Assembly: GCF_003201105.1 (NCBI RefSeq)
Contig: NZ_QICJ01000001.1
Location: forward strand, 434,001 to 498,000
Length of the DNA: 64,000 nucleotides
Origin: Dyella sp. AtDHG13
GTDB taxonomy: Bacteria; Pseudomonadota; Gammaproteobacteria; Xanthomonadales; Rhodanobacteraceae
Direction: 5' to 3'
The position numbers and the translations under genes were made by a program. A model generated the notes under the pieces. That model was not told the origin of the DNA and did not search any database. It saw only the letters and a list, made by a program, of their open reading frames with translations. Positions 20,055 to 34,522 of the stretch are shown here, piece by piece; position 1 is the stretch's first letter, and every line of letters starts with the position of its first letter.

Positions 20055-21611
20055 TCATCCCGCGATGCGCAATGCGTTGAGTCCGCCCACCAGCGAATAA
20101 GCGCCACGCACACCTTCACCGCGCAGCAATCGCGCGGCATGTGCGCTGCGGCGTCCGCTGGCGCAGACCAGCAGATAGCGACCCTCGGCGAACTCGCCTG
20201 CCCGCTCGCCCACCCTCGCCGACGGCACGTGCACTGCCGCTACCGGCATCGGGTCGCTGGCCAGTTCTTCCATCTCGCGCACGTCCACCAACTGAAACCC
20301 GGCGGCCACGGCGTCTTCCAGGCGATCGAACGCGAGATCGACTTCGTCTTCTTCGACGGCTCTCGCCATAGCCCGGCGCGCCACCTCCACGCAACCGCCC
20401 TGTTCGGCGCAACCGTGCGCCGCATCGATGGGCAGGTGCTGGATGCTCAGGTCGATCAGGTTGACCAGCGACAGCGCGCCTGCATTCGGCTGCGGCATAC
20501 CGAGCAGAAACTTCAACGCCTCCGTCGCCTGCATGGCGCCCAGCACGCCGGGCACCGGGCCGAGCACGCCGGCAAGCGTGCAGCTGCCGACGGTTTCCGG
20601 TGCCGGCTCCTGCGGCCACAGGCAGCGCAGGCACGGCGAACCCGGCCTGGCCGCCACAAACTGCAGCTGACCTTCGTACTGGTAGATGCTGGCAAGGATC
20701 AGCGGCGTGCCGGTGAGCACCGCCGCGTCGCTGCTCAGGTAGCGGCTGCGCATGTCGTCCGTGCATTCCACCACCAGGTCGAACTGGCGGAACACGTCGA
20801 GCACGTTGCCCGCGTCCAGCGGCTCCTTCCACAGTTGCACCTGCACCGCGGGATTGAGCGCGGCCACGCGCCGGGACGCCAGCTCCGCCTTGTATTCGCC
20901 CACGTCGCGCGCGTCGTACATGGTCTGCCGATGCAGGTTGCTCGCGTCCAGCCGGTCGCCATCGACGATGCCCAGCGTGCCCACGCCGGCGCCCGCGAGA
21001 TAGCTGATGACAGGACAGCCCAGACCGCCCGCGCCGATCACCAGCACGCGCGACGCAGCGAGTTTCGCCTGCCCCGCCTCACCGACCTCGCGCAGCCTGA
21101 CCTGGCGCGAATAGTCGGGGACGAAGGGCTCCGCATGCGCATGATGATGGTGGTGGTGGTGGTGATGGCCCTCGTGCTCATGCTCGCGATACACGTGCGT
21201 GCAAGCCACCCAGTCGGATTCGCCAGTGACGTAGTGTTCTTTCTTCCAGATCGGCAGCCGGTGCTTGATCTCATCGATGATGTAGCGGCAGGCGCGGAAA
21301 GCCTCGTCGCGATGCGGTGCGGATGCACCAACCCATACCGCCATGTCGCCGATGGCCAGGTCGCCGGTGCGATGCACGCAGCGCGCATCCGTGACGCCAT
21401 AGCGCGCGATAGCCTCGGCCACGATGCGCTCGCCCTCGGCCAGCGCCAGCTCCGCATAGGCTTCGTACGAAAGGCCATCCACTTCGCGCCCTTCGTTGCT
21501 GTTGCGTACCCAGCCTTCGAAGGCGCAAAAGCCGCCGCTGGATGCATGGCGAAGCCGCTCGCGCTGCTCCGCCAGGTCGACCGCCGCGCTGGAAAGTTCG
21601 AAACGGCTCAT
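20055..21611 (-). CDS. MoaE-MoeB-rhodanese triple fusion with polyhistidine linker
   Basis: A 518-residue protein joining three steps of molybdopterin synthesis. Residues 1-142 are MoaE, the large subunit of molybdopterin synthase, with the catalytic lysine pair in IWKKEHY (123-124). Residues 143-162 are a linker with nine consecutive histidines (149-157). Residues 166-415 are a MoeB/ThiF/E1-type adenylyltransferase with the nucleotide loop GAGGLGCP (193-200), CLRC (327-330) and GSCTLAGVLGPVPG. Residues 430-518 are a rhodanese domain with active Cys483 in VCASGRRS. MoeB would activate the MoaD C-terminus, the rhodanese would pass sulfur to it, and MoaE would insert it into precursor Z. The start at 21611 overlaps the moaD stop (ATGA). 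The second MoeB zinc pair is altered to C-x5-C (401/407). Confidence 0.93.
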   Translation of the reverse strand: MSRFELSSAAVDLAEQRERLRHASSGGFCAFEGWVRNSNEGREVDGLSYEAYAELALAEGERIVAEAIARYGVTDARCVHRTGDLAIGDMAVWVGASAPHRDEAFRACRYIIDEIKHRLPIWKKEHYVTGESDWVACTHVYREHEHEGHHHHHHHHHAHAEPFVPDYSRQVRLREVGEAGQAKLAASRVLVIGAGGLGCPVISYLAGAGVGTLGIVDGDRLDASNLHRQTMYDARDVGEYKAELASRRVAALNPAVQVQLWKEPLDAGNVLDVFRQFDLVVECTDDMRSRYLSSDAAVLTGTPLILASIYQYEGQLQFVAARPGSPCLRCLWPQEPAPETVGSCTLAGVLGPVPGVLGAMQATEALKFLLGMPQPNAGALSLVNLIDLSIQHLPIDAAHGCAEQGGCVEVARRAMARAVEEDEVDLAFDRLEDAVAAGFQLVDVREMEELASDPMPVAAVHVPSARVGERAGEFAEGRYLLVCASGRRSAHAARLLRGEGVRGAYSLVGGLNALRIAG

Positions 21612-21850
21612 CCGCCCGCCACCGGTGGAATGAAGACGACCGTATCGCCATCGCGCAACGGCCGATCCCAGGTGCTGAATTCGGTATTCACCGCCACCTT
21701 GAGCACGTCCGCCGCCAGCGAGAAACCGCGCGAGGCGCGCAGCTCGTCGTAGAGATCGCGCAGCGACGCCGCCGACGTGACGACCTGCTCGCCGCTCTTG
21801 CCGGCCTGCTCGCGCAGCTGCGCGTAGTACTGAAGATGGACGACCGTCAT
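21608..21850 (-). CDS. moaD: Molybdopterin synthase sulfur carrier subunit MoaD
   Basis: An 80-residue ubiquitin-like protein. It starts VHLQYYAQLREQAGKS and ends FIPPVAGG, the double-Gly tail that MoeB adenylates and that becomes the thiocarboxylate. It partners the MoaE domain encoded immediately downstream. Both ends overlap neighbours by ATGA: mobA upstream and the MoaE-MoeB fusion downstream, so the three should be translated together. Confidence 0.96.
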   Translation of the reverse strand: MTVVHLQYYAQLREQAGKSGEQVVTSAASLRDLYDELRASRGFSLAADVLKVAVNTEFSTWDRPLRDGDTVVFIPPVAGG

Positions 21851-22446
21851 GCCGGTGACTCCAAACGCTGCTGCATGGCTGCCCGCTCCTCGGGGGTGTT
21901 GACGTTGTCCAGCGCATCGCCGGGCGCGGGCAACAACTTGGTGTTGGACTGGATCAGCGCCTTGCGCGGGCAGTAGCTGCCGTCGCGGTAGCGCTGCAAC
22001 AGCAAGGCGTGGCTGGAGGGCTCCCAGATGGCGCAGAGCGGCTCGGGCAGCCCGTCGAAGTTGCTGTTGAAGGCGGTCGCGTCGGCGGTCGCGTCGCGCG
22101 CATCGATCAGGCGTTGCAGCGTGCCGCTGTCCAGCAACGGCAGATCGCACGCCAGCACCAGCCACGCCGCGTCTGGATGAAGATCCTGCGCGGAGAGTAT
22201 GCCCGCGGCGGGGCCGATGGCGTCGTAGCTGTCCACGATCTGCGGCAGGCCGGCACGCAGTGGATCGTCGCGCTGGCTGTCGCGCACGGACACGAAGGCG
22301 CGTTCGGTCACCGCTTCGAGCAGGCGCCATGCACGCAGCAGCTGCGGTTCGCCGCGATAGGCCAGCGCCGCCTTGTCCTGGCGCATGCGCTGGCTCGCGC
22401 CGCCGCTCAGCAGCAGGCCGTAGAGGGGAGCGCGCTGGCCGCTCAT
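21847..22446 (-). CDS. mobA: Molybdenum cofactor guanylyltransferase MobA
   Basis: A 199-residue nucleotidyltransferase that attaches GMP to Mo-molybdopterin, giving the bis-MGD cofactor needed by NapA. It has the signature LLLSGGASQRMRQDKAAL (GTP-binding Gly-rich loop and Lys), LVLACDLPLLD with the metal-binding Asp, and NVNTPEE at the end, all typical of MobA. It overlaps moaC by four bases and moaD by four. Confidence 0.93.
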   Translation of the reverse strand: MSGQRAPLYGLLLSGGASQRMRQDKAALAYRGEPQLLRAWRLLEAVTERAFVSVRDSQRDDPLRAGLPQIVDSYDAIGPAAGILSAQDLHPDAAWLVLACDLPLLDSGTLQRLIDARDATADATAFNSNFDGLPEPLCAIWEPSSHALLLQRYRDGSYCPRKALIQSNTKLLPAPGDALDNVNTPEERAAMQQRLESPA

Positions 22447-22937
22447 GCGATCTCCTCGCCGCCGATATCGTGTTTGCCGCCCGTCTTGGCGACGAGGCGA
22501 ATCTCACCGATCACGATGTCGTGCGACATCGCCTTGCACATGTCGTAGATGGTCAGCGCGGCAATGCTCGCGCCGGTCAGCGCTTCCATTTCCACGCCCG
22601 TGCGCCCGGCGCAGGCCACGGTGCAATCGATCCAGGCATCCACGCCCTCCATGCGGATGTCGATATCGCACTTGTCGATGCCGAGCGGATGGCACAGCGG
22701 AATCAGCTGCGGCGTGGCCTTGGCGCCCATCACGCCGGCGATCTGCGCCACGGTGAGCACGGCGCCCTTGGGCGTCACGTAGCCGGCCTCGTGCAGGCGC
22801 TGCGCGACATCGGCGGGAAAAGTGACCCGGGCGCGGGCGCGGGCCGTCCGGCGGGTCACCGCCTTGGCGCCGACGTCCACCATGCGTGGCTGCTGCTGTT
22901 CGTCGACGTGGGAAAGCGTGGTGGGCAGTGCGGTCAC
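22443..22937 (-). CDS. moaC: Cyclic pyranopterin monophosphate synthase MoaC
   Basis: A 164-residue enzyme that turns the MoaA product 3',8-cyclo-GTP into cyclic pyranopterin monophosphate (precursor Z). Conserved blocks are PRMVDVGAKAVTRRTA, IPLCHPLGIDKCDIDI with the catalytic Cys-His, and TGVEMEALTGASIAALTIYDMCKA with the active-site Glu/Asp/Lys. The start is GTG at 22937 with GGAG six bases upstream. A gap of 102 bases separates it from moaA; the next three genes overlap tightly. Confidence 0.96.
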   Translation of the reverse strand: MTALPTTLSHVDEQQQPRMVDVGAKAVTRRTARARARVTFPADVAQRLHEAGYVTPKGAVLTVAQIAGVMGAKATPQLIPLCHPLGIDKCDIDIRMEGVDAWIDCTVACAGRTGVEMEALTGASIAALTIYDMCKAMSHDIVIGEIRLVAKTGGKHDIGGEEIA

Positions 22938-23039: not shown

Positions 23040-24086
23040 TCAGCCACCGATGTAGTGCATTTCGATCTTGCGGGGCGCCTTGCCGTGGTGCCCGGCCCGC
23101 TCCTCGCTGTAACGATCGCGGCGGCGGAGCCAGGTGTCCCGCAGCAGCTCGGTCAGCTCCGCGTCGGTGGCGCCGCCGCGCAAGGGACCACGCAGGTCGG
23201 TGCCGCGGGTGGCGAACAGGCAGGTGTACAGCATGCCTTCGGAAGACAGCCTCGCCCGCGTGCAGCCGCCGCAGAACGGCTGGCTGATGGACGAGATCAT
23301 GCCGATTTCACCCGCGCCGTCCTCGAAGCGGTAGCGCGTGGCGACCTCGCCGGGGTAGGTCGGCGGCACGGCGCGCAGCGGCCAGCGGCCGCCGATGCGC
23401 TGTATCAGCTCGGCCGAGGGCACCACCGCCTCCGGACTCCAGTCGTTGCGGTTGCCCACGTCCATGTATTCGATGAAGCGCACGACGATGCCGCTGCCAC
23501 GGAAGCGCTCGACCAGGTCCAGCACCGTGTGCTCGTTCACGCCACGCTGCACCACGGTGTTGAGCTTCACGCCGTGTGGGAACCCGGCAGCGCGGGCGGC
23601 CTCGATACCGGCCAGCACGTCGTCCAGTGCGCCGCGTCCGCCGCTCATGCGGTGGAACAGCGCAGGGTCGAGCGTGTCGAGGCTGATGGTGACGCGGTCG
23701 AGGCCGGCATCGCGCAGCTCGTTCGCATGCCGCGACAGCAGCACGCCATTGGAGGTCAGGGCCAGATCGGTGATGCCGTCGATGCGGCGCAAGCGCGCGA
23801 CCAGTTCGACCAGGTTTGGCCGCAACAGCGGTTCGCCGCCGGTAAGGCGCAGCTTGCTCACGCCCTGCGTCGCGGCCAAGCGGCACAGGCGTTCGATCTC
23901 GTCGAAACTCAGGCGTTCGTCGTTGCGAAGGAAGGTGAAGTGCTCGCCGTAGGTCGACTCCGGCATGCAGTACGGACAACGGAAATTGCAGCGGTCCATC
24001 ACCGAAATGCGCAGGTCGTGCAACGGGCGGCCCCATTGATCGACCGGCAGCACGGCCGAGGATTCGCGGGCGTCGAGTGCGTTCAT
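23040..24086 (-). CDS. moaA: GTP 3',8-cyclase MoaA (radical SAM)
   Basis: The first enzyme of molybdopterin synthesis (348 residues). The N-terminal radical-SAM cluster motif C-N-F-R-C-P-Y-C binds the SAM [4Fe-4S] cluster, and KLRLTGGEPLLRPNL is the SAM-contact motif. The C-terminal second cluster is C-G-G-C-T-R-A-R-L-S plus a later Cys in MLYTCLF, the three-Cys GTP-binding cluster of MoaA. The protein ends IGG, the double-Gly tail required by MoaA proteins. The start at 24086 is one base beyond the moeA1 stop; the longer open frame to 24188 lies within moeA1. Confidence 0.97.
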   Translation of the reverse strand: MNALDARESSAVLPVDQWGRPLHDLRISVMDRCNFRCPYCMPESTYGEHFTFLRNDERLSFDEIERLCRLAATQGVSKLRLTGGEPLLRPNLVELVARLRRIDGITDLALTSNGVLLSRHANELRDAGLDRVTISLDTLDPALFHRMSGGRGALDDVLAGIEAARAAGFPHGVKLNTVVQRGVNEHTVLDLVERFRGSGIVVRFIEYMDVGNRNDWSPEAVVPSAELIQRIGGRWPLRAVPPTYPGEVATRYRFEDGAGEIGMISSISQPFCGGCTRARLSSEGMLYTCLFATRGTDLRGPLRGGATDAELTELLRDTWLRRRDRYSEERAGHHGKAPRKIEMHYIGG

Positions 24087-24087
24087 C

Positions 24088-25290
24088 TCACCACCGGTAG
24101 AACGACGCCACCGTACCGGCGGGCGCCTTGCCCTGCCCCGGTGGCAACTGCACGAATCCCTGCGTGCGCGGCAGGGACGAAAAATCACCCGAGGTGCGTG
24201 AAGGTACTGGATAGGCCATCAGCCTCCCCTGCGTGTCGGTTTGTACGCGCGCGGGCACGAAGCTGGCCAGCGTCGGGTTGATGTCCACCGCCTCGTCCAG
24301 GCACACGTATTCGGGTGCCGCGGGCGACGCTCCCAGCGCTGCGCGCAGGGCTGGGCGCGCATAGCGCGTGGCGCACACCAGGGCGGACACGGGGTTGCCG
24401 GGCAAGGCGAACACCGCCTGCCCGCGCGGGCCGATACCGAACCACATCGGCTTGCCCGGCTTCTGCGCAATGCGATGGAACACCTTGCGCACGCCTTCCG
24501 CCGCCAGCGCCGCGGGCACGTAGTCGCGCTGCCCCATCGATACGCCACCGGAAAGCAACAGCACGTCGTGCTGCAGCAGCAGTTCGGCGATGCGCACGCG
24601 CGTGGCGTCTTCATCGTCGACGATATGCTCGGCGACGACGCGGTCGAAGCCGTCGAGCCGCAGCGCCGCACGCACGGCGGTGTCGTTGGAGCGGCGGATC
24701 TGTCCTTCGCCCAGGGGCGCATCGACCTCCACCAGTTCATCGCCGGTGGACACGATGGCGACCGACGGCATCGCCGCCACCTCGACCATCGCCACGCCAT
24801 TGGCCGCCAGCAAGGCCATTTCCGCCGGCCCCAGGTGCATGCCCGGCGAGAGCAACAGGCTGCCTTGCGTACAATCCGAGCCACGCCGGTGGATGAACTG
24901 CCCTGCGGCGGGCTGGTAGCCGTCCGCCAGCGCGTAGCTGTCGCCATCGCGGTGCAATTGCTCCACCGGAATCACGCAGTCGGTGCCGGCCGGCAGCATG
25001 GCGCCGGTCGTCACCTCGAGGCACGCGTCATGCGCGGACAGCGATTGCATCCGCATGCCTGCCATCTGCGCGCCTGCCACGCGCAAGCGGCGCGGCAAGG
25101 TGGCGGACCAGTGCACGGCGATGCCATCCATCATCACGCGGTCGAATGGCGGATGATCGTGTTCGGCGTGCACGGCTTGCCGAAGTATCCGTCCTGCGGC
25201 ATCGCCCAAGCGCACGCGCTCACTGCCAAACGAGGGCATGTGTTCGGCGATCAAGGCTTCCGCCTGGCTGACGCTGATCAGGTCGCTCAT
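24088..25290 (-). CDS. moeA: Molybdopterin molybdenumtransferase MoeA (copy 1)
   Basis: Inserts molybdate into adenylated molybdopterin (400 residues). Domains appear in MoeA order: an N-terminal part with HPPFDRVMMDGIAV, a beta-barrel domain with TTGAMLPAGTDCVIPVE, the MPT-binding domain with VAIVSTGDELVEVDAPLGEGQIRRSNDTAV and LLLSGGVSMGQRDYVPAAL, then GNPVSALV and a C-terminal beta domain. A start at 25299 is also possible; neither has a strong ribosome binding site. It lies between modC and moaA in one run of minus-strand genes. A second MoeA is encoded at 28279-29541. Confidence 0.94.
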   Translation of the reverse strand: MSDLISVSQAEALIAEHMPSFGSERVRLGDAAGRILRQAVHAEHDHPPFDRVMMDGIAVHWSATLPRRLRVAGAQMAGMRMQSLSAHDACLEVTTGAMLPAGTDCVIPVEQLHRDGDSYALADGYQPAAGQFIHRRGSDCTQGSLLLSPGMHLGPAEMALLAANGVAMVEVAAMPSVAIVSTGDELVEVDAPLGEGQIRRSNDTAVRAALRLDGFDRVVAEHIVDDEDATRVRIAELLLQHDVLLLSGGVSMGQRDYVPAALAAEGVRKVFHRIAQKPGKPMWFGIGPRGQAVFALPGNPVSALVCATRYARPALRAALGASPAAPEYVCLDEAVDINPTLASFVPARVQTDTQGRLMAYPVPSRTSGDFSSLPRTQGFVQLPPGQGKAPAGTVASFYRW

Positions 25291-25344
25291 GGTTCCCATT
25301 GTGCGAGGAAGTATGGCCGCGTGGCACTGAGCATAGCGCGCCCG

Positions 25345-26433
25345 TCAAAGTCCCAGCGCAACGGCCTTCACCTGCGCCCAGGCCGTGCTGCCCGGCGCCA
25401 GCGCCAGGGCGTACCAGGATCGGCGCGTGATGCGGGCCAGCAGCGTGTTGCCGCCGGCATCGAGCTGCACGAGCAACTGCGAGGGATGATCCGCGTCGGC
25501 CACGGCGATGATGCGGCACGGCAGCTGGTTGAGCGCGCTGGTGCCTTCCTGCGGAGCCTTGGTCAGCACCACGTCGCGGGCGCCGATGCGGCAACGCAGC
25601 CGCTGGCCCACGCTTTCGTGGCGATACGGCAGCCACAGGCGCCCGCCGGCGAACTCCAGCGCGACCAGTTGGTCCTGCGCGTCGACATCCACCACCTGCC
25701 CGTCGATGACCGCGCCCACGGCTTCGCCCAAGGCCGGCGGCAGGTCCAGCCGGGTCAGGGTGTCCTGCAGGCTGCCCTGCGCCACCACGTGTCCCGCTTC
25801 CATCAGCACCAGATGGTCGGCCAGCCGCGCCACCTCGTCCACGTTGTGGCTCACGTAGATCATCGGCACGCGCAGCGTGGCATGCAGCGATTCCAGGCAA
25901 GCCATGAGGTCACCGCGCGCCGCGCCATCGAGCGCGGACAACGGCTCGTCGAACAGCAGCAGGGCGGGATCGGAAAGCAGCGCCTGCACCATCGCCACGC
26001 GCTGGCGCTCGCCACCGGAGAGGTGATCCACGCGACGCGGCAACAGGGGCCGCAAGCCGAAGCGATCAATCAGGCCTTCGCGATCCAGATGCGCCGGGCG
26101 GCCCGCGCGCCGATAGCCGAAATCCAGGTTGCCGGCGACGCTGCGATGGGTAAACAGGCTGGGCTCCTGGAAGACATAGCCGAGGCGCCGACGATGCGTG
26201 GGCACGAATACGCGATGCAGGCTGTCCTGCCACAGCTGCGATCCAAAACTCATCCGGCCCGACGCGTCGCGTTCCAGTCCCGCGATGGCGCGCAGGCAGC
26301 TGCTCTTGCCCGCGCCGGAAGGCCCGAACAAGGCGGTGATGCCCTGCGGCGGCAAGCGCAGGTCGATATCGAACGCGAGCGCACCGCGGCGCCAGGCGAG
26401 CTTGGCTTCCAGGCCGTGCGGGGAATCAGTCAC
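25345..26433 (-). CDS. modC: Molybdate ABC transporter ATP-binding protein ModC
   Basis: The ATPase of the molybdate importer (362 residues from the GTG at 26433). It has Walker A FGPSGAGKSS, the Q-loop YVFQEPSLFTHRSV, the signature LSGGERQRVAMVQALL and Walker B LLLFDEPLSALD. The last 70 residues are a Mop/TOBE domain (TSALNQLPCRIIAVADADHPSQLLVQLDAGGNTLLARITRRS), which in known ModC proteins senses molybdate and down-regulates transport. The GTG overlaps the last codons of modB; the longer open frame upstream lies inside modB. Confidence 0.94.
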   Translation of the reverse strand: MTDSPHGLEAKLAWRRGALAFDIDLRLPPQGITALFGPSGAGKSSCLRAIAGLERDASGRMSFGSQLWQDSLHRVFVPTHRRRLGYVFQEPSLFTHRSVAGNLDFGYRRAGRPAHLDREGLIDRFGLRPLLPRRVDHLSGGERQRVAMVQALLSDPALLLFDEPLSALDGAARGDLMACLESLHATLRVPMIYVSHNVDEVARLADHLVLMEAGHVVAQGSLQDTLTRLDLPPALGEAVGAVIDGQVVDVDAQDQLVALEFAGGRLWLPYRHESVGQRLRCRIGARDVVLTKAPQEGTSALNQLPCRIIAVADADHPSQLLVQLDAGGNTLLARITRRSWYALALAPGSTAWAQVKAVALGL

Positions 26434-27109
26434 GCGTCTGCCTGCGGGTGCGCAAGAGCGACATGGCGAGCAAGGCCGCGAACGACACCGCGAGCAGGCA
26501 CAGCGACAGCACGTTGGCCTGGTGGTACTCGCCCGCCTGCACATGATCGTAGATGCGCATGGACAGCACGCGCGTCTGGCCCGGAATGTTGCCGCCGATC
26601 ATCAGCACCACGCCGAACTCGCCCACCGTGTGGGCAAAACTAAGCACCGCTGCGGTCACCACGCCCGGCAAGGCCAGGGGCAAGGCGATGCTGAAGAAGC
26701 GGTCCAGCGGCCCCGCACGCAGGCAGGCGGCCACTTCCAGCGGGCGGTTGCCCACCGCTTCGAAGGCGTTCTGCAGCGGCTGCACCACGAACGGCAGCGA
26801 ATACAGCATCGAGGCCACCACCAGTCCCTTGAAGGTGAACGGCAACGCCGCCAGCCCGAGCGCGGCCATGGCCCGCCCCACCACGCCGTTCGGCCCCAGC
26901 AGCATCAGCAGATAGAAACCCAGCACGGTCGGCGGCAACACCAGGGGCAGGGCCACCACGGCGGCGATGGGGCGCCGCCAGCGCGAGCGCGTATGCGCCA
27001 GCCACCACGCCAGCGGCAGGCCGAACAGCAGCAACAGCACCGTGACCGTCGTCGCCAGCCGCAGCGTCAGCCCCAACGCCTCGATGTCCGCATCCGTCAG
27101 CCAGGCCAT
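26426..27109 (-). CDS. modB: Molybdate ABC transporter permease ModB
   Basis: The membrane subunit of the molybdate importer (227 residues). Five hydrophobic helices are visible, starting ALGLTLRLATTVTVLLLLFGLPLAWWLA. The ModB-specific PLVLPPTVLGFYLLMLLGP and the coupling loop RPLEVAACLRAGPLDRFFSIALPLALPGVV are clear, as is FGVVLMIGGNIPGQTRVLSMRIYD. It lies ten bases after modA and overlaps modC. Confidence 0.95.
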   Translation of the reverse strand: MAWLTDADIEALGLTLRLATTVTVLLLLFGLPLAWWLAHTRSRWRRPIAAVVALPLVLPPTVLGFYLLMLLGPNGVVGRAMAALGLAALPFTFKGLVVASMLYSLPFVVQPLQNAFEAVGNRPLEVAACLRAGPLDRFFSIALPLALPGVVTAAVLSFAHTVGEFGVVLMIGGNIPGQTRVLSMRIYDHVQAGEYHQANVLSLCLLAVSFAALLAMSLLRTRRQTRD

Positions 27110-27118
27110 GAGGGGCGC

Positions 27119-27895
27119 TCAGTGCGCGCCGTCCTCCGGCAGGTTGAAGCCGTAGCGCGCAAGCAGGGCCTTGGCCGGCGCCGACTGCACGTAGCGTGCG
27201 AAGTCCTGCGCAAGCGGGTTGTCCGCGCCGCGCCGGGTCAGTACGAAACTCTGCTTCAGCGGCTCGTACAGCGATGCCGGCACGGGCTCGGACGTGCCCT
27301 TGACGGGCGAGTTGATCACCAGCGATTCCGCCACCAGCCCCACCTGCGCGTTGCCGCTCTGCGCGAACTGCGCGGTCTGGCCGATGTTGTCGCCAAACAC
27401 CAGCCGCGACTGCAGCTTGTCCCATACGCCCGCCGCACGCAGCGCCTGTTCGGCGCGCTTGCCGTACGGCGCATGCTGCGGATTGGCGATGGCGATGCGT
27501 CCGAAGCGAGGCTGCGCCAGGTCGGCGACCTGCACGCCGCGCATGTCGATGCTCGCGCTCCACATCACCAGGTGGCCAAATGCATAAGGCACCGGCGTAC
27601 CGCCTGCCTTGCCGTGCTCCACCAGTTGCTGCGGGTAGCCGCTGTCCGCCGAGAAGAAGATCTCGAAGGGCGCGCCCTGCTCGATCTGCGTCAGCAGGTT
27701 GCCCGAGGAGCCATACACCACGTCGATGCGGCTGCCGGGATGATCGTGGCGATACGCCGCCGCCACCTCGTCCAGCGCCTGATGCAGGTCGGCCGCGGCG
27801 GCCACCGTGATGTGGTTGTCGGCGGGCGCGGCCATCGACGCGGATGCGAACACCGCCCCGAGGGCCAACAGGGCTTGCAACAGCCGACGCTTCAT
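27119..27895 (-). CDS. modA: Molybdate ABC transporter substrate-binding protein ModA
   Basis: The periplasmic molybdate receptor (258 residues). A signal peptide (KRRLLQALLALGAVFASASMA) is followed by ITVAAAADLHQALDEVAAAYRHDHPGSRIDVVYGSSGNLLTQIEQGAPFEIFFSAD, the typical ModA N-lobe with the oxyanion-binding Ser residues. NPQHAPYGKRAEQALR and a C-lobe follow. The start at 27895 has AGGAG seven bases upstream. It is the first of modABC. Confidence 0.95.
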   Translation of the reverse strand: MKRRLLQALLALGAVFASASMAAPADNHITVAAAADLHQALDEVAAAYRHDHPGSRIDVVYGSSGNLLTQIEQGAPFEIFFSADSGYPQQLVEHGKAGGTPVPYAFGHLVMWSASIDMRGVQVADLAQPRFGRIAIANPQHAPYGKRAEQALRAAGVWDKLQSRLVFGDNIGQTAQFAQSGNAQVGLVAESLVINSPVKGTSEPVPASLYEPLKQSFVLTRRGADNPLAQDFARYVQSAPAKALLARYGFNLPEDGAH

Positions 27896-27940
27896 CGTGT
27901 CACTCCTGGTGCGGTGGTTGAGGATAGTCCAGCCCATCGT

Positions 27941-28282
27941 CTACTTGGCGCGACGATGGCGCACGCTGTCGCGCACGTCCACGTCGAACAGCAGTTCCAG
28001 TGGCTCGCCCTCGCCGCTTTCCAGCACAAACGTCAGCCCGTCGCGGGACGGCAAGGTGGCCGCGTAGGCGCGCAGGGAGTCTTCGGGCAGGTCGATCGTC
28101 CAGGCGACCGCCGGCCCACTGAAGCGTGCCGCCGCGCCGGCCACCGCGCGCAGCGTGCACGACAGCGACATGTCGTGTGTAAAACGCGTATGCGAAACCA
28201 CGGGCTGGCCCACCAGCAGGCTGGCCAGCTCCACCTCGCCGATGCGCACGCGCAGGCTCTGCCCTTCGATCTGCAGTTTCAT
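27941..28282 (-). CDS. Unknown 113-residue protein in the molybdenum operon
   Basis: I do not recognise this with certainty. It is a soluble, probably all-beta protein with no signal peptide and a single Cys. The N-terminus MKLQIEGQSLRVRIGEVELASLL and the later strand pattern (AVAWTIDLPEDSLRAY, GLTFVLESGEGEPLELLFDVDV) resemble the small DUF7009-type proteins, but this is from memory. Its start overlaps the stop of the second moeA (ATGA) and modA begins 45 bases after it, so it should be made together with cofactor insertion and molybdate uptake. A role in handling molybdate or MoeA is an inference from position only. Confidence 0.75.
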   Translation of the reverse strand: MKLQIEGQSLRVRIGEVELASLLVGQPVVSHTRFTHDMSLSCTLRAVAGAAARFSGPAVAWTIDLPEDSLRAYAATLPSRDGLTFVLESGEGEPLELLFDVDVRDSVRHRRAK

Positions 28283-29541
28283 GATGCGACTCCTTGAGGG
28301 TCTGATCCGCCGAGCAGCGGCTCGTCGGGATGCAGGCTCGCCACGATGACTTGCGCGCCTGGCGCGACGGGGCCGGCGTCTTCCGGCAGCACGATCCAGG
28401 CCCCGGCCTGCGCGAACGGCTGGATGCGGAACGGCTGCTGCTGCGCGAGCACCTGCGCATGAAGCCGGCCGGTTTCATCCTGCGTCACGCGACCCCGCAG
28501 GAAATGGCGCAAGCCGGGCTTGGGCTGCTGCGGCGTATCGAGCACGGCCTGCCACGCGGGTTCGGCCGCCTGCCCACGCATGGCGCGCAGCAGCGGCGCG
28601 ATGAAAAAGCGCAACCCCACCGCCACGGCCATGGGCGTACCGGGCAGGCCGAACACCATCGCATCGCCCAGCATCGCCGCCAGTTGCGGCTTGCCGGGGC
28701 GAATGCCGACCTTGTGGAACAGCAGGCGCGCGTCGAGTTCCGCCAGGGCGTCGGGCACGAAGTCGTAGCGTCCCATCGACACGGCGCCGGTGCTGACGAT
28801 CAGATCGACACCCGCGCGTTGCGCACGCCGCATGGCGTCGGTGAAGCTCTGTCCGGTGTCGTCCACCGTTTCGCAAGACAGCACGTGCGCGCCCATCGCG
28901 GCGAGCGCCGCCGCGAGATACGGACCGTTGGAGGCGTAGATCTCGCCATCGCGCAGCGGCTGCGACGGATCCGCCTGCAATTCCTTGCCGGTGCAGATGA
29001 TCGCCACCCGTGGCGCGCGCACCACCTCCACCGCGGCGATACCAAGCGCCGCGAACAACATCACGTGACTGGCCGCCACGCGGGTGCCGGCGGAGGCGAT
29101 CACAGTGCCTTTCGCAACGTCGCTGCCGGCGTAACGGACGTTGGCCGTCGGCATCACCGCATCGAGCAGGCGGATGCGCGCGGGCGAACCGTCAGGCCGG
29201 CGTTCCAGCAGTTCCGTATGCTCGACCGGCACCACGGTATCGAGCCCATCGGGTAGACGCGCGCCGGTCATGATTTCCCAGGCCATGCCGGCGGATGCGC
29301 GCCGCGCATCGCCCGCGGCCTGCGAACCCTGCACCGCATGCTCCGAACCTGCCGCAAGCGCTTGCGGGGCGTGCAGGGCATAACCGTCCATCGCCGAATG
29401 ATCGAACGAGGGCAAGTCCATCGGGCTCACCACATCGCGCGCCAGCACCTTGCCCACGGCCTCGCCCACCGGGTACGACAGCGCCTCTAGCCGCCTGGCG
29501 TGCTGCAAGATCCGCTGAAGGGCGTCGTGGTAAGCAATCAT
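28279..29541 (-). CDS. moeA: Molybdopterin molybdenumtransferase MoeA (copy 2)
   Basis: A second MoeA paralogue of 420 residues and the first gene of the minus-strand molybdenum run. It has PMDLPSFDHSAMDGYALHA, TGARLPDGLDTVVPVEHTEL, APRVAIICTGKEL with the MPT-binding domain, VDLIVSTGAVSMGRYDFVPDAL, and a complete C-terminal domain. Sequence divergence from copy 1 is high, so it is not a recent duplication. Where paired MoeA proteins occur, one may serve a different cofactor form (bis-MGD or a tungsten/other pterin); nothing here decides. The start at 29541 leaves a 175-base gap to the divergent fdhD. Confidence 0.93.
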   Translation of the reverse strand: MIAYHDALQRILQHARRLEALSYPVGEAVGKVLARDVVSPMDLPSFDHSAMDGYALHAPQALAAGSEHAVQGSQAAGDARRASAGMAWEIMTGARLPDGLDTVVPVEHTELLERRPDGSPARIRLLDAVMPTANVRYAGSDVAKGTVIASAGTRVAASHVMLFAALGIAAVEVVRAPRVAIICTGKELQADPSQPLRDGEIYASNGPYLAAALAAMGAHVLSCETVDDTGQSFTDAMRRAQRAGVDLIVSTGAVSMGRYDFVPDALAELDARLLFHKVGIRPGKPQLAAMLGDAMVFGLPGTPMAVAVGLRFFIAPLLRAMRGQAAEPAWQAVLDTPQQPKPGLRHFLRGRVTQDETGRLHAQVLAQQQPFRIQPFAQAGAWIVLPEDAGPVAPGAQVIVASLHPDEPLLGGSDPQGVAS

Positions 29542-29716
29542 CCGAAGTCGTGGCCTGTGTCGTCGCGCGGGAAGCTGCCTCCCCGCCATGCTCTGCGCGG
29601 GGGCTGCCGTATGCAAGCGGCCAAGCTACCTTGATACGATGCGCGGTGTCGACCGAGGCCGTCCGCGCCCGGTCGACACGCGACCGTTTGCCGCCGCAAC
29701 CGCAGGAGAACCGCCC
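29542..29716. promoter_or_regulatory. Divergent promoter region between moeA2 and fdhD
   Basis: The 175 bases that separate two divergent molybdenum-related genes must contain the start signals for both. I see no clear -35/-10 pair and no obvious ModE-type palindrome. Confidence 0.5.
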
Positions 29717-30794: not shown

Positions 30795-31331
30795 TCAAGG
30801 CCGATCGGTCGTCCCACCATCCACCACCTCGATGATGGTGACACTGCGCACCCAGCGCGCAGGTCGCTTGTCGCCGGGAACGAGCAGGCGCAGCGGCCCG
30901 TCCTTGTCCAGCGGCTTGCCGTCGCGCGTATCCACCAGCAGCACCTGCGTGTGCCCCAGCGTCGGATCGAGATCGGCCAGCCCGAACACCACCTGGTACT
31001 TGTCCGCGGCCGTGACTCGGACGAAGGATGCCAGCGCCTTGCCACGCAGCGGCTTGTCCAAGGGCACGCCGGCCTTGGCCAGCACGTCTTCCAGCTTTAC
31101 GCCGCGCCACTGGGCGGCTGGCTCGTCGTGTGCCGAAGCGGTGACCTCTTCATGCGGCATGCCAGCCAACGCAGCGGCGTCGAGCGTCAGCGCGGGCTTG
31201 CCCTGCACCCTCACGCTTACGCCCGCGGGAGCGGGCGACACGGGCGCATCGGCAGCGTTCGCCAAGAAGGCGAGACACGTGGCAAGCATCAAGCACCCGA
31301 AGAAGTACTTAGTCGACAGCGTTGTTGCCAT
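30795..31331 (-). CDS. Secreted SUOX-fold (molybdopterin-binding-like) protein lacking the Mo-ligand Cys
   Basis: A 178-residue exported protein: signal peptide YFFGCLMLATCLAFLANA, then a short oxidoreductase molybdopterin-binding (sulfite-oxidase-type) fold. Recognisable parts are VSVRVQGKPALTLDAAALAGMP, QWRGVKLEDVLAKAGV, ASFVRVTAADKYQVVFGLADLDP, and LVPGDKRPARWVRSVTIIEV. The mature part contains no cysteine at all, so the residue that binds molybdenum in true sulfite oxidases is missing, and the protein may bind something else or be structural. It is divergent from the nap operon and next to fdhD. Confidence 0.8.
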   Translation of the reverse strand: MATTLSTKYFFGCLMLATCLAFLANAADAPVSPAPAGVSVRVQGKPALTLDAAALAGMPHEEVTASAHDEPAAQWRGVKLEDVLAKAGVPLDKPLRGKALASFVRVTAADKYQVVFGLADLDPTLGHTQVLLVDTRDGKPLDKDGPLRLLVPGDKRPARWVRSVTIIEVVDGGTTDRP

Positions 31332-31699: not shown

Positions 31700-32024
31700 C
31701 GCCATCGCCTCCCCGCAAGGGAATGCCATGAAGGACGAGCACCACATTTCCAGCCTCGTCGTGCTGCATCGCCCGGATGCCATCGCCGCGCTCGGCGCCT
31801 TCGTGGAGCAGCACGCCGCGCTGGACATCGCCGTTCAAGGCGATTGCCGCTGCGTGGTGGTGTGCGAGACCGACAGCCAGCGCGCCGTGATGGACCACAT
31901 CGACGCGCTGGAAGCCCTGCCCGGCGTCATCAACGTATCGCTGATCTACCACCACGTGGAACCCTGCGCCGTGATGGACGACGTGGTGCACACCGCGGCA
32001 ACGCCCCAAGGAGTCGACGCATGA
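31692..32024 (+). CDS. napD: NapA signal-peptide chaperone NapD
   Basis: A 110-residue cytoplasmic chaperone that binds the Tat signal of NapA until the cofactor is in place. The ferredoxin-like fold shows as [71 protein letters not shown]. The start overlaps napE and the stop overlaps the napA ATG. Confidence 0.95.
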
Positions 32025-34522
32025 CGCTGAACCTGACGCGACGGGAATTCATCCGCAACACCGCCGTGGCGGTGGCCGCGAACGTGGCCGGGCTGGCCGT
32101 GCCCGCCAGCGCCACCAACGTGCTGCTGGAAGGCGACCTGACCCAGCTCAAGTGGAGCAAGGCGCCCTGCCGTTTCTGCGGCACCGGCTGCGGCGTCAAT
32201 GTGGCGGTGAAGGATGGCCGCGTGGTGGCCACGCACGGCGACCAGCTGGCGGAGGTCAACCGCGGCATCAACTGCGTGAAGGGTTATTTCCTCTCCAAGA
32301 TCATGTACGGCGCGGACCGGCTCACCGCGCCCCTGCTGCGCAAGAAGGATGGCGTCTACGCCAAGGACGGCACGTTCACCGAAGTGTCGTGGGACGAAGC
32401 CTTCGACGTGATGGCGCAGCAGTTCAAGCGCGTGCTCAAGGAGAAAGGCCCCGAGTACGTCGGCATGTTCGGTTCCGGCCAGTGGACGGTGTGGGAAGGC
32501 TATGCCGCCAACAAGCTGTTCAAGGCCGGCTTCCGCAGCAACAACCTGGACCCCAACGCACGCCATTGCATGGCCTCGGCCGTGATGGGCTTCATGCGTA
32601 CCTTCGGCATGGACGAGCCGATGGGGTGCTACGACGACATCGAAGCCGCCGACGCCTTCGTGCTGTGGGGCTCGAACATGGCGGAGATGCACCCGATCCT
32701 GTGGACACGCGTGACCGACCGGCGGCTGTCCAACCCCAACGTCAAGGTGGCGGTGCTGTCGACCTTCGAGCACCGCAGCTTCGAGCTGGCCGATATCCCT
32801 ATCGTCTTCACGCCGCAGACGGACCTGGTGATCCTCAACTACATCGCCAACCACATTATTCAGAGCGGCCGCGTCAACCAGGATTTCGTCGACAAGCACA
32901 CCACGTTCAAGCGCGGCGTCACCGATATCGGCTACGGCCTGCGTCCGGACAATCCGCTGGAGGTGAATGCGAAAAACGCCAAGGATCCGAACGCCGGCGA
33001 AGCCATCGACTTCGAGCAGTTCGCCGCCTTCGTCAAGCCCTACACGCTGGAAAAAGCCGTCGAAATGACGGGCGTGGAAAAGGGCTGGCTGGAAAAACTG
33101 GCCGAGTTGTACGCCGACCCGAAGACCAAGGTCGTGTCGTTCTGGACCATGGGCTTCAACCAGCACACGCGCGGCGTGTGGGCCAACAACATGGTCTACA
33201 ACCTGCACCTGCTCACCGGCAAGATTTCCACGCCGGGCAACAGCCCGTTCTCGCTCACCGGCCAGCCATCCGCCTGCGGCACCGCGCGCGAAGTGGGCAC
33301 CTTCAGCCATCGCCTGCCGGCCGACATGGTGGTGACCAACCCCGAGCACCGCAAGCACGCGGAGGAGATCTGGAAGATCCCGCACGGCATCATCCAGCCC
33401 AAGCCCGGCTACCACGCCGTGCAGCAGAACCGCATGCTGCGCGACGGCAAGCTCAGCGCGTACTGGGTGCAGGTGAACAACAACGTGCAGGCCGGCGCCA
33501 ACCTGATGCAGGAGACCTACCTCGGCTATCGCGACCCGCGCAACTTCATCGTCGTGTCCGATGCCTACCCTACGGTCACCGCGCAGTCGGCCGATCTCAT
33601 TCTTCCCGCCGCCATGTGGGTGGAGAAGGAAGGCGCCTACGGCAATGCCGAGCGCCGCACGCAGTTCTGGCATCAGCTGGTGAAGGCGCCGGGCCAGGCG
33701 CGCTCGGACCTGTGGCAGCTGATGGAATTCTCCAAGCGCTTCACCACCGACGAGGTGTGGCCCGCCGACATCCTCGCGGCGAACCCGCAGTTCAAGGGCA
33801 AAACGCTGTTCGAGGTGCTGTACCGCAACGGCAACGTGGACAAGTTCCCCAGCTCGGACATCGAAGCCGGCTACGACAACGACGAAGCGGCCGCCTTCGG
33901 CTTCTACGTGCAGAAAGGGCTGTTCGAGGAATACGCCACGTTTGGCCGCGGCCATGGCCACGACCTTGCACCGTTCGACGATTACCACAAGGCGCGCGGC
34001 CTGCGCTGGCCCGTGGTCGACGGCAAGGAAACGCGCTGGCGCTATCGCGAAGGTTCCGACCCGTACGTGAAGGCGGGGACGCAGTTCCAGTTCTACGGCA
34101 ACCCTGACGGCCGCGCGGTGATCTGGGCCCTGCCCTATGAACCGCCCGCCGAGATGCCCGACAAGGAATACGACCTATGGCTGTCCACCGGCCGCGTGCT
34201 GGAACACTGGCATTCCGGTTCGATGACCATGCGCGTGCCCGAGCTGTACCGCGCCGTCCCTGAGGCGGTGGTGTTCATGAACCCCGACGACGCCCGCGCG
34301 CGCGGACTCAAGCGCGGCGACGAAGTGAAGGTGATCTCCCGCCGCGGCGAAATGCGCTCGCGGGTGGAGACGCGCGGACGCAACCGCCCGCCGCCGGGCC
34401 TGGTGTTCGTGCCGTGGTTCGACGCCGGCCAGCTGATCAACAAGGTGACGCTGGACGCGACCGATCCCATCTCCAAGCAGACCGACTACAAGAAGTGCGC
34501 GGTCAAGGTCGTGGCCGTCTAG
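32021..34522 (+). CDS. napA: Periplasmic nitrate reductase catalytic subunit NapA
   Basis: Reduces nitrate to nitrite in the periplasm (833 residues). A twin-arginine signal ([26 protein letters not shown]) precedes the [4Fe-4S] motif [10 protein letters not shown] with a fourth Cys in GINCVKGYF. The molybdenum ligand is Cys183 in [13 protein letters not shown]. Typical NapA stretches follow: [52 protein letters not shown], and the bis-MGD-binding C-terminal domain ([51 protein letters not shown]). The ATG overlaps the napD stop. MobA, MoaA-E and MoeA in the same window supply its cofactor. Confidence 0.98.

Follow-up and report, generated by a model that had tools for sequence, protein, structure and literature searches.

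As long as the E1-like activator and MPT synthase are separate proteins, it is difficult to examine how MoaD passes from the one to the other and whether the two form a working complex. The window analysed in this work, by which we mean the whole stretch of 64,000 nucleotides from Dyella sp. AtDHG13, raises this question directly, as it contains a gene in which MoaE, MoeB and rhodanese domains appear to be joined through a histidine-rich segment. Such a fusion ties one donor to one acceptor in every chain, in sequenced Dyella strains, and packs the sulfur part of cofactor synthesis compactly into a single gene. Is the joined protein real, where else does it occur, and what might the chain and its histidines do?

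The chain, its active sites and its gene neighbourhood

Positions 20055 to 21611 of the reverse strand form one stop-free open reading frame of 518 amino acids plus the stop codon, in which Pfam places in order a MoaE domain, a 27-residue His-rich linker, a ThiF/MoeB domain and a C-terminal rhodanese. The MoaE part (residues 1-137; 21201..21611) matches the MoaE family (PF02391) over residues 8-118 with an E-value of 5.5e-35 and 120.4 bits against a cut-off of 23.4. The linker covers residues 138-164 (21120..21200), and the E1-like MoeB domain of the ThiF family covers residues 167-398 (20418..21113; E 2.1e-72, 243.6 bits, above the cut-off) and matches the solved Uba4 structure at 4.7e-48. 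The rhodanese (residues 431-514; 20070..20321) scores 23.9 bits, above its cut-off of 22.2 (E 5.9e-5), this part alone matches solved rhodanese domains (best E 1.6e-7), and its active-site loop reads C483-ASGRRS; four distant fusions were also scanned, and two of them have a rhodanese that lies just under the same cut-off (20.2 and 19.2). The original prediction of three domains in a single chain was therefore exact in coordinates, strand and length, with all Pfam cut-offs passed. The NCBIfam equivalog cut-offs are missed by the fusion for MoaE (PRK10678, 79 bits versus 175) and for MoeB (TIGR02355, 160.5 versus 376.55; PRK08762, 302.9 versus 449), as is that of MoeZ (232.9 versus 647), and the equivalog cut-off for MoaD is likewise missed. 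A structure model built from three sequences had a mean pLDDT of 44, too poor for domain contacts, with ten-residue means above 70 only at residues 61-70 and 431-510.

For the numbering of residues we used the MoaE and MoeB sequences of E. coli MG1655, in which the letters were verified. Residues R36, H100, R101, K116 and K123 of the window protein align with R39, H103, R104, K119 and K126 of E. coli MoaE, which we take to be catalytic, and R169, R228, K241 and D285 align with R14, R73, K86 and D130 of E. coli MoeB, which together with C172, C175 and C187 we presume to be catalytic or metal-binding; the MoeB domain of the window further carries C327/C330 and C344. All of these E. coli MoaE and MoeB positions are invariant in the 82 fused proteins collected in this work (30 of a first set and 52 of a second family), and the rhodanese cysteine is kept in 81, the exception being L164 of the second family, a fused protein cut by the end of its contig before the rhodanese. 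The catalytic residues predicted for each domain are thus present and conserved. Internal stops flagged in the G1293 and G1315 matches proved to be natural frame ends after the rhodanese cysteine. All 82 proteins keep the first CxxC of the MoeB zinc site, while the second takes the form C-x5-C throughout the 30 of the first set and is irregular in the second family, where the search pattern missed some rows. In the available part of PMC3227635, MoeB and MoeBR are recognised by a pair of CxxC motifs towards the end of the MoeB domain; the second is absent as such from the window fusion, which by this published criterion is not a plain MoeBR.

Upstream of the fusion and on the same strand lie genes for MoaD (21608..21850), a MobA-like NTP transferase (21847..22446), MoaC (22443..22937), the radical SAM protein MoaA (23040..24188), MoeA (24088..25299), a ModC-like ABC ATPase with a TOBE domain (25345..26541), a ModB-like ABC permease (26426..27106) and a ModA-like solute-binding protein (27119..27934), these last three being named by domain and place, and a second MoeA (28279..29613). 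The gene for NapA, the periplasmic nitrate reductase and a consumer of the cofactor, lies beyond this moa/moe/mod cluster on the opposite strand (31844..34522). The two MoeA paralogues flank the mod-like transporter genes, and positions 30795-31331 hold a short protein of 177 residues with an Oxidored_molyb domain (E 2.2e-10) for which there was no NCBIfam match at 1e-20.

MoaD is a protein of 80 amino acids of the ThiS family (Pfam, E 6.8e-17) ending in PPVAGG and thus in the C-terminal GG, and its stop codon overlaps the ATG of the fusion by 4 bases; that a free MoaD would be supplied by an overlapping gene just upstream had been predicted correctly. MoaD lies upstream of the fusion in 29 of the 30 loci of the first set, with the 4-base overlap in 28 of these, and somewhere in the fetched stretch for all 52 fused loci of the second family; no recognisable MoaD was found within the 9.5 kb fetched around the fusion of G244. 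A survey of prokaryotic ubiquitin-like systems states, in the sections available, that moaD rarely adjoins moeB (PMC1779556), which makes the neighbourhood of moaD and the fusion notable.

A search for a second MoaE in the genome of the window found none. The fusion being the only MoaE in a genome with napA, it would have to be the MPT synthase if NapA is matured. There is a second MoeB-type protein, of the PRK08762 type (388 amino acids, L109:1638-2804 on G000:C2), which by eye has a rhodanese-like loop, CGSGQRS, near its N-terminus and adjoins an EngA-like GTPase reading frame. This protein could also activate MoaD or back up its activation. Its presence could be taken to mean that PRK08762 activates MoaD and that the MoeB-rhodanese half of the fusion mainly serves another ubiquitin-like carrier, in tRNA thiolation or in thiamine or cysteine synthesis, and the accessible parts of two reports do describe MOCS3 and MoeZR as each serving two kinds of carrier (PMC5372717, PMC3227635). 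However, the gene directly follows moaD, with the 4-base overlap in 28 of 30 cases, and is fused to MoaE, and we hold this division of labour to be very unlikely.

Distribution and origin of the fusion

Of 197 genomes sampled from the window's family, 146 contain MoaE and 27, from six of 26 genera, carry the fusion as a single stop-free frame; within the window's genus it was found in 16 of 18 sampled genomes. At E-values of 1e-75 or better a sample of 299 genomes of the order added one fusion, in G244 of another family. At 1e-60 or better, both halves were spanned only in the window's genome (G000) and G435 among 369 genomes of the class, and only in G000 and G1106 among 398 genomes of the phylum, limits that more diverged fusions could escape, as they could that of the order sample. 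A search for MoaE in 94 genomes of the class, 66 of which had one, gave frames longer than 500 amino acids only in G000 and G435, and in the order of G1106 one genome out of 130 matched. Within the family of G435 (the second family) 59 of 100 members matched at 1e-75 or better, and 53 of these 59 loci, G435 included, carry the fusion; the 58 loci besides G435 comprise 52 that are fused, five in which MoaE and MoeB-rhodanese have a frame each and one with the MoeB half only, near a contig end. The fusion has thus been seen in 82 examined genomes of four families, at identities as low as 47%, with single cases in the two families beyond the main ones. Two gammaproteobacterial families carry it commonly, and it is less isolated than the original prediction suggested. 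Among plasmids 527 records matched and none covered 80% of the query in one place; a Paenibacillus plasmid, the one with both MoaE and MoeB among the 15 matches listed of these 527, was considered and set aside since it has a MoaD-MoaE frame overlapping a MoeB frame and not one chain. A sulfur-carrier fusion of a different combination was noted in G1048, of the same class, where a frame stretch of 620 residues (L103:757-2616) joins Prok-JAB, an unassigned middle part, ThiF and rhodanese.

An architecture as unusual as this one would, taken alone, speak for a sequencing or assembly artefact that joined two genes. Against this, the same open fusion recurs in the 27 family genomes and the 53 loci of the second family, and in the former no frameshift separates MoaE from MoeB, an error the original prediction had allowed for; a frameshift or assembly fault is ruled out in practice, and we give it a negligible chance. 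Being shared by dozens of related genomes, the fusion is a real and heritable protein, apparently undescribed and assembled from well-known parts. It is not indispensable, as in G176 (an 86% complete assembly) MoaE is directly followed by another gene without an adjoining MoeB-rhodanese, and in G021 the MoaE and MoeB-rhodanese halves lie apart. MoaE proteins with His-rich tails and without MoeB-rhodanese directly after them were observed at L046 (G176) and L056 (G052), the frames that follow being moeA, and cytochrome b-like and molybdenum oxidoreductase-like frames (names given by eye).

Several relatives stand one step from the fused state. In L135, L136 and L138 of the second family MoaE and MoeB-rhodanese lie in one frame with a single stop codon between them and an in-frame ATG one or two codons after the stop, and the fused L126 of the same family keeps an ATG ATG just before its MoeB part that resembles a relic start. 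In another family of the order, L040/L110 shows the unfused arrangement moaE-TGA-GTG-moeB-rhodanese. Loss of one stop codon would therefore suffice to produce the fusion. Trees were computed for the 30 fused proteins of the first set, the 52 of the second family being in neither. In the MoeB tree these 30 and the unfused MoeB of G021 form one clade (SH-aLRT 99), whereas four changes are needed on the MoaE tree; a constraint that keeps all 30 fused MoaE together gave a p-AU of 0.046, and one on 29, without L105, gave 0.145. The unfused MoaE of G176 sits inside the fused group of the MoaE tree with support of 97/95, so splits or losses occur, and G021 falls among the fused proteins in the MoaE tree but is placed apart from the main group by the MoeB tree. 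The trees are compatible with either a single origin followed by later splits or several origins.

In a rival reading the fusion would be neutral: a stop codon was lost between translationally coupled neighbours, the domains behave as if they were separate, MoaD comes from and returns to the bulk pool, and nothing is gained kinetically. The three second-family loci one stop from fusion, the relic-like ATG ATG of L126, the unfused order of L040/L110 and the G176 MoaE within the fused group all agree with such a history. It is a serious rival, to which we assign somewhat less than an even chance, given that the fusion is found in 16 of 18 genomes of the genus and in 82 genomes of four families with its active sites kept, although persistence alone is no proof of benefit. 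The natural split versions in another family, one stop codon away, can serve as controls.

The histidine-rich linker

Thirteen of the 27 linker residues of the window protein are His, and nine are consecutive at residues 149-157 (21141..21167), encoded by a mixture of CAC and CAT codons. Elsewhere in the chain 2% of the residues are histidine, and at this frequency the chance of at least 13 in 27 is about 1e-15. There is no start codon between the run and the end of the linker, and hence no internal start is seen there for a separate MoeB. The original prediction had presented the nine-His run as the joint between MoaE and MoeB. The run indeed lies in a His-rich linker, but it is unique to the window, the longest run in the other 81 fused proteins being one to six, and it was rejected as a conserved site, since His-richness alone is conserved; similar His-rich segments also occur as free C-terminal tails of some unfused MoaE. 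Linkers with at least five His are found in 71 of the 82 fused proteins (29/30 of the first set and 42/52 of the second family), compared with none of 28 tails of unfused MoaE from other families of the class, these being the best-scoring loci and not a random draw. His is the commonest linker residue, at 23.6% pooled over all linkers. The remaining 11 of 82 linkers have fewer than five His, and L160-L163, all of one genus, are fused through just 11-12 residues with 1-2 His. Linker length ranges from 11 to 69 residues and the linker sequence is hypervariable beyond close relatives. His-richness is beyond chance, and is kept in most relatives.

It is not confined to fused proteins. Within the window's family, 20 of 24 unfused MoaE (best-scoring loci) have no His-rich tail, and those that have one are L046, L056, L059 and the divergent L053. 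Tails with 5-10 His were also found on the unfused MoaE of L135, L136, L138, L172 and L173, the last of the window's family, and one with 4 His on L169; the second family has five unfused MoaE, all with His-rich tails except L169. The MoaE of L173 (G034) and L053 (G170) are divergent, at 43-44% identity, and such tails may therefore have arisen more than once. A tail produced by the fusion alone was considered and rejected on account of these unfused examples, which indicate that the segment is not just a joint; together with the short linkers of 1-2 His they make His-richness neither a by-product of the fusion nor essential. His-richness follows MoaE lineages rather than fusion alone.

In three genomes of one genus the linker has received an in-frame insert of about 30 residues (AVVPAKAGTQC...SLDPSVRWGDEQ), at L033:6478-6570 of Dyella ginsengisoli LA-4 and also in G045 and G029. 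Its DNA is a dispersed palindromic repeat (G058, G045, G029), similar copies of which lie elsewhere in all five genomes searched. Tolerance of such a repeat in frame suggests a tether more than a rigid site.

Whether the linker is more than a tether is a question that bears on metals in the molybdenum cofactor pathway and can be tested. It may be an element selected for binding a metal (Zn, Ni, Cu or Co), by which MPT synthase would be regulated or protected or the zinc site of MoeB supplied. The contrast between 71 of 82 linkers and none of the 28 tails from other families of the class would fit this, as would the retention of His in a segment whose sequence is otherwise hypervariable and its recurrence on the unfused MoaE listed above, and a C-x2-C opens the linker in 51 of 52 second-family proteins. 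Several points weigh on the other side: the C-x2-C occurs in only one of 30 linkers of the first set and is absent from that of the window, 11 of 82 linkers (L160-L163 among them, with 1-2 His) fall below five His, 20 of 24 unfused MoaE of the window's family lack a His-rich tail, and runs of CAY codons can grow by replication slippage. On balance we regard a selected metal-binding role as possible and rather unlikely. More doubtful still is an extended version of it, according to which the segment would be a metal site of the MoaE lineage, free and fused, that buffers or supplies thiophilic Cu, Zn or Ni beside the exposed thiocarboxylate, the persulfide and the nascent dithiolene, so that the chain would act as a metal-guarded single-chain molybdopterin factory passing MoaD between active sites without its leaving.

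Proposed working of the chain and comparison with known systems

The reading that we prefer, and think probable on the strength of the domain architecture, the conserved residues, the gene order and the lack of any other MoaE in the genome, is that one chain performs all MoaD-dependent steps of molybdopterin synthesis. We infer each catalytic step, the hand-over within the chain and the flexibility of the linker as follows. The MoeB domain would bind free MoaD and ATP and form MoaD-AMP at the C-terminal glycine, while Cys483 of the rhodanese would be charged with persulfide sulfur by a donor acting upstream and pass this sulfur to MoaD-AMP to give MoaD-COSH, with Cys344 probably resolving the acyl-disulfide as in MOCS3/MoeZR. 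MoaD-COSH would then dock on the MoaE domain, where cPMP would be converted to molybdopterin, and spent MoaD would go back to the MoeB domain. The linker would be a flexible, hydrophilic tether keeping donor and acceptor sites close, for which its range of 11-69 residues and its tolerance of an in-frame repeat are fitting, and its His-rich make-up may bind metal. There are precedents for parts of this scheme in what is available of the published reports: MoeBR and MoeZR thiocarboxylate MoaD (PMC3227635), MOCS3 has a sulfur relay involving C412 and C239 (PMC5372717), and the human MPT synthase has been reported in a 274 kDa complex containing MOCS3 (PMC9228816), so that association of MPT synthase with its activator would not be without example.

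No paper recognisable as describing a MoaE-MoeB-rhodanese protein was found in full-text searches of the open PMC literature, and the architecture may be listed elsewhere without comment; the original prediction, which knew of none, agrees with this. The closest likeness is to MoeBR and MoeZR of Mycobacterium and MOCS3/Uba4 of eukaryotes, in which a ThiF-type adenylating domain is likewise followed by a rhodanese in one chain, a likeness which rests on the domains, the Uba4 match and the E. coli MoeB positions. The available descriptions of MoeBR, MoeZR and MOCS3 mention neither a MoaE domain nor a His-rich linker (PMC3227635, PMC5372717), and the window fusion has a C-x5-C where the MoeB zinc site has its second CxxC. 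The PRK08762 protein of the same genome likewise combines MoeB with a rhodanese-like part; this part is however N-terminal, there is no MoaE, the second CxxC is canonical (CPGC), and the MoeB tree places the protein outside the clade of the fused proteins. Neighbouring Moco genes have likewise been joined in some archaeal lineages, with different partners; the accessible sections of PMC11237513 list MoaD-MoeB, MoaD-MoeBR and MoaC-MoaE fusions, and no MoaE-MoeB-rhodanese protein is named among them. Finally, MoaX and other MoaD-MoaE fusions likewise involve MPT synthase, but in these, as described in the parts available of PMC4326299 and PMC3227635, it is MoaD that is fused and cleavage is required, whereas in the window MoaD and MoaE do not share a chain and MoaD stays free, encoded by its own reading frame.
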